DNA of 64,000 bases, from contig JAMONV010000045.1 of NCBI GenBank assembly GCA_027066365.1, positions 1 through 64,000 of the forward strand, written 5' to 3'. The stretch is from Flavobacteriales bacterium (GTDB taxonomy: Bacteria; Bacteroidota; Bacteroidia; Flavobacteriales; Flavobacteriaceae). The translations under genes were made by a program, and so were the position numbers. The notes under the pieces were generated by a model. That model made no database searches. It was given only the letters and a program-made list of their open reading frames with translations, and had not been told where the DNA came from. Below, in pieces: positions 26,882 to 27,864 of this stretch (position 1 is its first letter; every line of letters begins with the position of its first letter).

Positions 26882-26902
26882 TTACTTTTGTATCAAAAGT
26901 AA
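26882..26902 (+). promoter_or_regulatory. Promoter -7 box inside a 21-bp perfect palindrome
   Basis: TTACTTTTG (26882-26890) and CAAAAGTAA (26894-26902) form a perfect inverted repeat around TAT. The left arm contains TACTTTTG, a -7 box, and the expected transcription start lies in the right arm. A dimeric repressor bound here would cover both. It sits 19 bp before the ATG of the EF-hand lipoprotein. Confidence 0.55.
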
Positions 26903-26920
26903 CACATAAATCTAATAAAT

Positions 26921-27490
26921 ATGAAACTAAAACAATTTGTAGTAGCATTATTGGCCGGATGGTTTGTGCTGGCTTTTGCTTCGTGTAGCGGCGGAAACCA
27001 AAATTCCGGGAAAGCCGAAGCGACGGTAAAAGAAACGGTGGAACATAACGAAGAAGCCATTGAGAAAAAAACGGAAGAAGTAAAAGACAAAGTAGAAGAA
27101 TCCGACAAGCGGACCGGACAAAAAATGAAAAAGTTGGAAGAACATTTTGCATTGATCGATACGAATGCGGACGGGAAATTAAGCAAAGAAGAATTTAATA
27201 AGCATTCCGAAGAAGAATACGCCAAAAAAGACAGGAACGGCGACGGAAAAATCACGGCGGACGAATGCAAAAAATTCGACGACTTCAATACCGACGGCAA
27301 TGATTTTCTTTCCAAGGAAGAGTTTATGAAAGGACACGAAAAAATGTTTGACCGAATGGATGCCGACGGCAACGGTGAAGTTAGCAAAGAAGAATTTTTG
27401 GGATTCTTTAAAGAAAAAGCCGGAAAAGCGATGAAAGGAAAATGCGGTGCCGGCAAATGCGGCGAAGGAAAATGCGGTGGCGGAAAATAA
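26921..27490 (+). CDS. EF-hand lipoprotein with C-terminal GKCG repeats
   Basis: 189 residues. Lipobox AFASC puts the lipidated cysteine at 22. A helical Glu/Lys-rich spacer (30-75) precedes EF-hand loops at 80-91 (DTNADGKLSKEE), 104-115 (DRNGDGKITADE), about 121-134 (degenerate) and 147-158 (DADGNGEVSKEE). The last 17 residues repeat GKCG three times with cysteines at 175, 180 and 185. GKCG/EGKCG repeats are typical of HvfA/bufferin-type metal-binding proteins whose cysteines are modified by DUF692 (MNIO) enzymes. No such enzyme is encoded in this window. The protein is exported and probably binds Ca2+ and a thiophilic metal. It is monocistronic, with its own promoter and terminator. Confidence 0.85.
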   Translation: MKLKQFVVALLAGWFVLAFASCSGGNQNSGKAEATVKETVEHNEEAIEKKTEEVKDKVEESDKRTGQKMKKLEEHFALIDTNADGKLSKEEFNKHSEEEYAKKDRNGDGKITADECKKFDDFNTDGNDFLSKEEFMKGHEKMFDRMDADGNGEVSKEEFLGFFKEKAGKAMKGKCGAGKCGEGKCGGGK

Positions 27491-27512: not shown

Positions 27513-27546
27513 AAAACCGTCCTCGACTCATTGAGGGCGGTTTTTT
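27513..27546 (+). terminator. Intrinsic terminator after the EF-hand lipoprotein gene
   Basis: AAAACCGTCCTC (27513-27524) pairs with GAGGGCGGTTTT across an 8-nt loop with one G-T pair and ends in TTTTTT. It lies 22 bp past the stop. Confidence 0.85.
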
Positions 27547-27864
27547 GTTGACGATGACAAGCCGGGATGTTTTTTGGTGTATTTAGATATTTTTTATCGG
27601 ATCTCTTATGAATTTTTGATGCAAGAATCCTAAAACTTACCGCGTCTCGTATATGTTTTATTATTTTTTTAACTATTTTTATTCAGAAATGCAAGTTTCA
27701 AGTTTCATTACGTTATACTATACCGTGTTTTACCGTTAGTGATTTAAGTGATCGGAATTGGATTTTGATGCATTCAATTTGAAGGGTAATAACTTAATCG
27801 ATTGAAAACAATGTTCATTCATACGTATTTGAGATTCGGGGAGAATAAATAAATCGTAATTTCA
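27547..27864. other. Intergenic region, nothing recognised
   Basis: About 320 bp of AT-rich DNA between two converging genes. No open frame of significance, no repeat shared with other parts of the window and no clear promoter was seen. Confidence 0.6.

Follow-up and report, generated by a model that had tools for sequence, protein, structure and literature searches.

The window, by which we mean the whole 64,000-nucleotide stretch of Flavobacteriales DNA that was analysed, carries a gene for an EF-hand protein whose C-terminus, KGKCGAGKCGEGKCGGGK, holds GKCG repeats at Cys175, Cys180 and Cys185, Table 1. The remaining cysteines are Cys22 and Cys116, the latter being the sole one outside lipobox and tail. 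By the lipobox criterion (FASC, Cys22) the product would be a bacterial lipoprotein, probably exported and lipidated. Pfam matches above cut-off were obtained for EF-hand_5 (E 1.4e-15) and for EF-hand_6, the latter with four stretches. A sequence-only reading of this DNA had described a lipoprotein with EF-hands and three C-terminal GKCG motifs, which is borne out by the open reading frame, the lipobox, the Pfam matches and the three tail cysteines; its "four EF-hands" stand as four loops, of which three are canonical and the third (residues 123-134) is, by reading, degenerate at positions 1 and 6, with Asn at 1 and Asp at 6. The three canonical loops probably bind Ca2+.

Table 1. Features of the EF-hand gene, its product and its flanks.
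Feature	Position in window	Strand	Basis or remark
Perfect 9-bp inverted repeat, 3-base spacer, TTACTTTTG-TAT-CAAAAGTAA	26882-26902	+	spans the -7 element
Promoter-like -7 element, TACTTTTG	26883-26890	+	inside inverted repeat 26882..26902
EF-hand lipoprotein with C-terminal Lys-Cys tail, 189 aa	26921..27490	+	ORF, EF-hand Pfam matches, orthologues in 7/8 genus relatives
Putative Sec/SPII signal peptide, residues 1-21	26921..26986, including lipobox Cys22 codon	+	read from sequence
Lipobox Cys22	26984-26986	+	FASC by reading; invariant in 8/8 orthologues
Predicted long helix, residues 31-79	27011..27157	+	AlphaFold2; confidence low before about residue 61
EF-hand loop 1, residues 80-91, canonical, DTNADGKLSKEE	27158..27193	+	Pfam and reading
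EF-hand loop 2, residues 104-115, canonical, DRNGDGKITADE	27230..27265	+	Pfam and reading
Cys116, directly after EF loop 2	27266-27268	+	invariant in orthologues
EF-hand loop 3, residues 123-134, degenerate, NTDGNDFLSKEE	27287..27322	+	by reading
EF-hand loop 4, residues 147-158, canonical, DADGNGEVSKEE	27359..27394	+	Pfam and reading
Lys-Cys tail, residues 174-189, KCGAGKCGEGKCGGGK	27440..27487	+	pairwise identity 0.87; pLDDT below 50 over 171-189
Tail cysteines Cys175, Cys180, Cys185	27443-27445, 27458-27460, 27473-27475	+	ORF translation
Terminator-like hairpin and T run	27513..27547	+	directly after gene; by reading

An AlphaFold2 model built on a three-sequence alignment has a pLDDT of 82-94 per ten-residue block over residues 71-160 and below 50 for residues 171-189, and because of the latter we take the tail to be probably disordered. 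The long helix predicted ahead of the first loop may possibly form a stalk between the lipid anchor and the EF-hand domain. Pro at EF loop position 2 is a lanmodulin feature and does not occur here; against the lanmodulin model the window protein scores 19.9 and its relatives 33-37 of 135 bits, far below cut-off, and matches to lanmodulin and XopAW were rejected as generic EF-hand similarity. Lanmodulin and EfhP-type EF-hand proteins (EfhP being known to us via PMC12452194 only) are likewise exported bacterial proteins with EF-hands.

A -7-like element was found upstream of 10/10 genes of this EF-hand kind examined, 32-40 bases away in eight of them; none was found upstream of the second EF-hand gene of one relative, G008. 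We take the consensus of this element to be TAnnTTTG. The inverted repeat around it is the only match in the window at three or fewer mismatches (0.18 expected), and a perfect repeat of at least 8 bases around the -7 element was found only at this gene and at the orthologue in G007, so the idea that the palindrome is a shared operator was set aside. The G007 repeat lies at a similar place and differs in sequence from that of our genome. Because the terminator-like hairpin follows directly, the EF-hand gene seems to stand alone in its own genome.

Conservation of the tail and its other carriers

The genome that contains the window (G000; 2.03 Mb, 64 contigs, 98.99% complete) was searched together with eight relatives of the same genus that are 80-98% complete. 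An EF-hand orthologue was found in seven of the eight and none in the remaining one, G005 (89% complete). Homologues lacking the GKCG tail had been named beforehand as evidence against the sequence-only reading; there are none among the seven orthologues, and all 8/8 compared (own and seven relatives) carry three or four C-terminal Lys-Cys motifs. Mean pairwise identity over the eight aligned sequences is 0.87 for the tail, 0.65 for the EF loops, 0.54 for the EF region outside the loops and 0.30 for the linker (residues 23-74), and the tail is thus the best-conserved segment of the protein. Its codons vary synonymously among orthologues, and selection therefore acts on the protein. A DNA pattern for KCGxGKCG gave five matches at three places in our genome and at least one match in each of the nine genus genomes, and a backward control pattern gave no match in any of the nine; together with the constancy, the high identity and the synonymous variation, this argues that the tail is not due to chance. 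Two further EF-hand lipoproteins of the same genome, at L027:2791-3291 (G000:C49) and L028:12013-12525 (G000:C34), are without a Lys-Cys tail, so the tail is no general mark of the EF-hand proteins of this genome.

The tail is carried by other proteins as well. By DNA pattern it was found on NosL-type proteins (own genome, G001, G002, G005, G006 and G008), and it also ends a cytochrome c lipoprotein of our genome (contig C4), a CusB-like adaptor in one relative (G001) and a second EF-hand protein in two species (G008 and G006, in the latter as a fragment at the edge of a contig). Variants such as KCAPGKCG escape the DNA pattern, and it took the protein search to detect the NosL tails of G004 and G007. 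Used as a protein query, our NosL-type protein gave matches in 46/149 genomes. Thirty NosL-like loci were opened, 18 further rows of the match list standing outside this count, and nine of the 30 are tailed, namely all eight of the genus and one in another family (G052); on the other 21, including that of G037, no tail was found. The protein search gave no NosL-type match in G003. The NosL-type protein of the genome behind locus L101 (Flavobacteriales M17) is also tailed. Since the same kind of tail is present on unrelated exported proteins, we regard it as a portable module.

NosL (PF05573) is the Cu(I) chaperone of nitrous oxide reductase and, like the genus proteins that we call NosL-type, which share the tail kind, an exported lipoprotein (lipobox by reading); the body of the EF-hand protein is unrelated, and it is no NosL. 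Gene order with NosZ, NosD and NosF/NosY-like genes, together with low Pfam scores, suggests the NosL assignment, which is weak by profile: our protein reaches 14.7 of 24 bits against PF05573, below cut-off, and a whole-genome search with this model gave matches in 3/11 genomes, our own not among them, with the cut-off passed in G001 only. Our NosL-type gene belongs to the nos cluster at L059:2007-10818 (G000:C4), whose NosZ, above cut-off, is Sec-dependent and fused to a cytochrome c; the cluster further includes NosD, NapG/NapH-like ferredoxins, the divergent tailed NosL-type protein and, by reading, ABC transporter genes. The tailed CusB-like protein of G001 has a heavy-metal-binding domain and a CusB/HlyD body, and its gene has a CueO-like multicopper oxidase gene on one side and, on the other, genes for an outer-membrane efflux protein and an RND pump that the contig end truncates. 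It is because of these two settings, the nos cluster and the efflux genes, that copper is named as the metal; for the tailed cytochrome c and the EF-hand protein, whose gene is not within a copper cluster, copper would be the metal by the company that the tail keeps elsewhere.

Search for a modifying enzyme and comparison of the motif

EGKCG peptides modified by MNIO (DUF692) enzymes carry a 5-thiooxazole at Cys, minus 4 Da for each. The sequence-only reading had remarked that no modifying enzyme is encoded nearby and had proposed a genome search for DUF692/MNIO genes. This profile search found no MNIO (PF05114) in our genome or in any of the eight genus relatives (0/9 overall), and the DUF2063 partner (PF09836) was likewise found in none of the nine, nor in G037 or G052, so the remark holds and extends genome-wide for both families. 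PF05114 was found in 3/60 relatives searched (G040, G042 and G055) and in two control genomes, and PF09836 in 3/14 genomes searched (G040, G042 and G065). Given the completeness of the relatives, loss of the enzyme from all nine genomes through incomplete assembly is very unlikely. MNIO was also not found in G052, the bearer of a tailed NosL-type protein in another family, or in the M17 genome behind L101.

The motif itself differs from that of MNIO substrates. In 12 proteins from MNIO-bearing genomes (six HvfA-like peptides of Bacteroidota and six EF-hand chimaeras of proteobacteria) 48/48 Lys-Cys motifs have an acidic residue two positions ahead of Lys (Glu 42, Asp 6), versus 13/62 motifs of 20 tailed genus proteins, which, all belonging to one genus, are not independent of one another. 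The commonest residues at this position in the genus are Ala, Gly and Lys, Lys or Pro occupying it in 14/62 motifs, and in the window protein it is acidic in one motif of three. Counted by protein, 12/12 from MNIO-bearing genomes are wholly acidic versus 0/20 in the genus. Cysteines without a preceding Lys were left out of the count, which makes Lys constant by construction; in the motifs so chosen, Cys is followed by Gly or Ala. Two loci were also left out, L144 (no genome for the MNIO check) and L129 (MNIO-negative, with another motif style). The protein pattern used to gather loci favoured A or E at one position, whereas the DNA pattern did not. Eight other MNIO-negative proteins, counted apart, have an acidic residue in 19/42 motifs (17 E, 2 D); one MNIO-negative genome among them, G679, has it in 8/9, so the position is no perfect predictor. 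According to the available part of PMC13097082, the fontiphorin enzyme in vitro accepts Ala in place of the acidic residue but not Arg, and Pro nowhere, so loss of the acidic residue does not forbid modification.

Profile scores agree with this in part. Six tailed genus proteins scanned with NCBIfam NF050137 (KCGExKCG domain, cut-off 19.5 bits) are all below cut-off, the CusB-like protein of G001 at 15.0, the second EF-hand protein of G008 at 16.6 and the EF-hand protein of G004 at 16.7 bits, with the window protein and our NosL-type protein and cytochrome c not listed; MNIO-associated proteins pass in 3/3 cases (23.9, 32.9 and 48.3 bits). The full HvfA model, NF050188 (cut-off 95 bits), does not separate the two groups, because the three MNIO-associated proteins (24.3, 20.7 and 53.3 bits) fall below it as does the window protein (15.4 bits). 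The motif count and the NF050137 scores thus speak against the likeness to HvfA and bufferin substrates that had been read into the GKCG repeats.

Captophorins of the EGKCG type (HvfA/oxazolin, fontiphorin, gonophorin; NF050188, NF050137) are likewise exported and have Lys-Cys-Gly every five residues. The window tail differs in that no MNIO or DUF2063 was found, the acidic residue is not kept and the NF050137 cut-off is not reached, and the genus tail is appended to folded proteins. As far as the accessible parts of these papers go, NedA is a lipidated EGKCG peptide made with its MNIO (PMC12636315), thiooxazole peptides are treated in PMC13419390 and PMC13097082, and EF-hands are fused to GKCG motifs in exported EGKC/EF-hand chimaeras (PMC12452194), for which copper and Ca2+ roles have been suggested. 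In those chimaeras, again from the part available, the Cys part is N-terminal, the EGKC motifs following a TM helix, with two EF-hands and a tie to MNIO genes, whereas the window protein has a lipobox, four EF loops and a C-terminal tail, in a genome where no MNIO was found. In the proteobacterial chimaeras opened here (e.g. L103, L134) motifs flank the EF-hands on either side, and the genomes encode an MNIO. The literature searched, which was covered mostly as titles and abstracts, with subscription papers under-covered, yielded no account of Lys-Cys tails on NosL or CusB or of such tails without an MNIO.

Wider searches with the tail DNA pattern gave matches in 12/296 genomes of the order, four of which (G044, G057, G071 and G080) were dropped as an oxidoreductase with MKCGxGKCGRC, and in 106/395 genomes of the phylum, where 28/28 new loci opened were of this oxidoreductase type. 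Several unopened phylum matches (e.g. G348, G361, G427, G645), having Glu between both motifs, may be HvfA-like. At L061:5966-7858 (G037:C106) a sigma factor, a short possible anti-sigma gene, an HvfA-like peptide and DoxX lie together by reading; G037 is 99% complete and neither MNIO nor DUF2063 was found in it, so that the order has a second such case without the enzyme, in a different family. The HvfA-like cluster of G065, of the same genus as G037, has both. At L143:5665-6793 (G679, Dive96 MAG) an EGKCG-rich HvfA-like peptide is followed directly by a DoxX-like frame (by reading), and PF05114 was not found in G679 as assembled. At L100:6001-6942 (Bacteroidales MAG S145_13) an EF-hand lipoprotein has its whole cassette duplicated, with GKCG clusters before, between and after the copies; PF05114 was not found in that genome.

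Candidate roles of the Lys-Cys tail

We favour, at a probability of about 0.6, an unmodified flexible Lys-Cys tail that would hold Cu(I) in the envelope and be portable across the exported proteins of an MNIO-less lineage. The protein would sit in the envelope on a lipid anchor, its EF-hand body of the Ca2+ type bearing a flexible tail of free Lys-Cys repeats, whose three thiols, five residues apart, would be the Cu(I) ligand with no MNIO modification; the tail would buffer copper or hand Cu(I) on, and could exchange it with the tails of NosL-type or CusB-like proteins. This starts from the observed anatomy and conservation, the failure to find MNIO or DUF2063 and the spread over unrelated proteins. 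The missing enzyme genes and the changed motif suggest that the tail is unmodified, and the free thiols, Cu(I) as the metal and a buffering or relay role are probable on sequence grounds. The sequence-only reading had offered either an orphan substrate or an unmodified metal-binding tail, and the second is the better supported, strengthened by the NosL-type and CusB-like tails. More tentatively, and with appreciably less confidence, the unmodified tail may be a general copper module grafted on the C-termini of NosL-type, CusB-like, cytochrome c and EF-hand proteins, with Cu(I) passed from tail to tail; it would then be an enzyme-free counterpart of the captophorins, perhaps their precursor or relic.

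A different, unrecognised enzyme might modify the Lys-Cys tails of these exported proteins, and the conserved K-C plus small residue, spaced mostly by five residues across unrelated proteins, is what an enzyme's recognition motif might look like; equally spaced free thiols would explain the conservation as well, and we consider such an enzyme unlikely. We know of no candidate modifying gene for these tails, the profile searches for modification genes having covered PF05114 and PF09836.

The gene neighbourhood raises another alternative, that the EF-hand protein is mainly the partner of a periplasmic flavin dehydrogenase and that its tail takes part in assembly or thiol chemistry of that enzyme and not in copper handling. 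A Gluconate_2-dh3-like gene adjoins the EF-hand gene in six of the seven relatives that have an orthologue (G002, G003, G004, G006, G007 and G008), and in the seventh, G001, both genes are at contig ends. At L101 and L100 a gluconate dehydrogenase subunit 3 homologue is also beside the EF-hand gene, followed at L101 by a GMC oxidoreductase and c-type cytochromes, and our tailed cytochrome c resembles an L101 cytochrome (24% over 128 residues, E 2e-15, two-sequence comparison). The profile search for PF13618 gave no matches in the nine genus genomes; a PF13618 protein and the product of the G004 neighbour gene are nonetheless homologous (32%, E 5e-29). It is for this adjacency in the six relatives, L101 and L100 that the dehydrogenase role is kept as a rival. 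On the other side, NosL-type and CusB-like proteins, whose genes have other neighbours, carry the tail too, and in our genome the Gluconate_2-dh3-like homologue is apart from the EF-hand gene, on contig C21 (L238:2609-3154) and without dehydrogenase company, and the window gene stands alone; a mainly dehydrogenase-linked role is therefore improbable. The C21 homologue adjoins a gene that is ComEC-like by reading.

That the tail is a sorting or tethering tag for an export or assembly system, and no metal ligand, would agree with its position in the genus carriers examined, at the very C-terminal end or close to it, but Bacteroidota C-terminal sorting domains as modelled (T9SS type A, 72-75 positions) are much longer and a T9SS domain is found separately on the neighbouring multicopper oxidase of G001, which leaves this very unlikely. 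Least credible is an orphan substrate whose GKCG cysteines a DUF692/MNIO enzyme elsewhere in the genome modifies in trans: the motif resembles EGKCG, and the available part of PMC12452194 reports Buf1 and Buf2 precursors, the stand-alone bufferin case, unlinked to MNIO genes in sizeable proportions, but all nine genus genomes (80-99% complete) lack matches to PF05114 and DUF2063 while keeping the tail, and the acidic position is not kept.

An unmodified copper-holding tail therefore remains our preferred reading. GKCG repeats are in use as a mark of MNIO-made copper peptides, and this genus keeps the repeat with neither the enzyme nor its partner found. The motif counts suggest that an acidic residue two before Lys could serve as a simple sequence check to tell candidate MNIO substrates from look-alikes. 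On NosL the tail would be a possible copper-loading feature beside the Sec-dependent nitrous oxide reductase, which removes a greenhouse gas, and the tailed proteins of the genus would be a natural reference for asking what is gained from the thiooxazole over plain thiols in such a tail.
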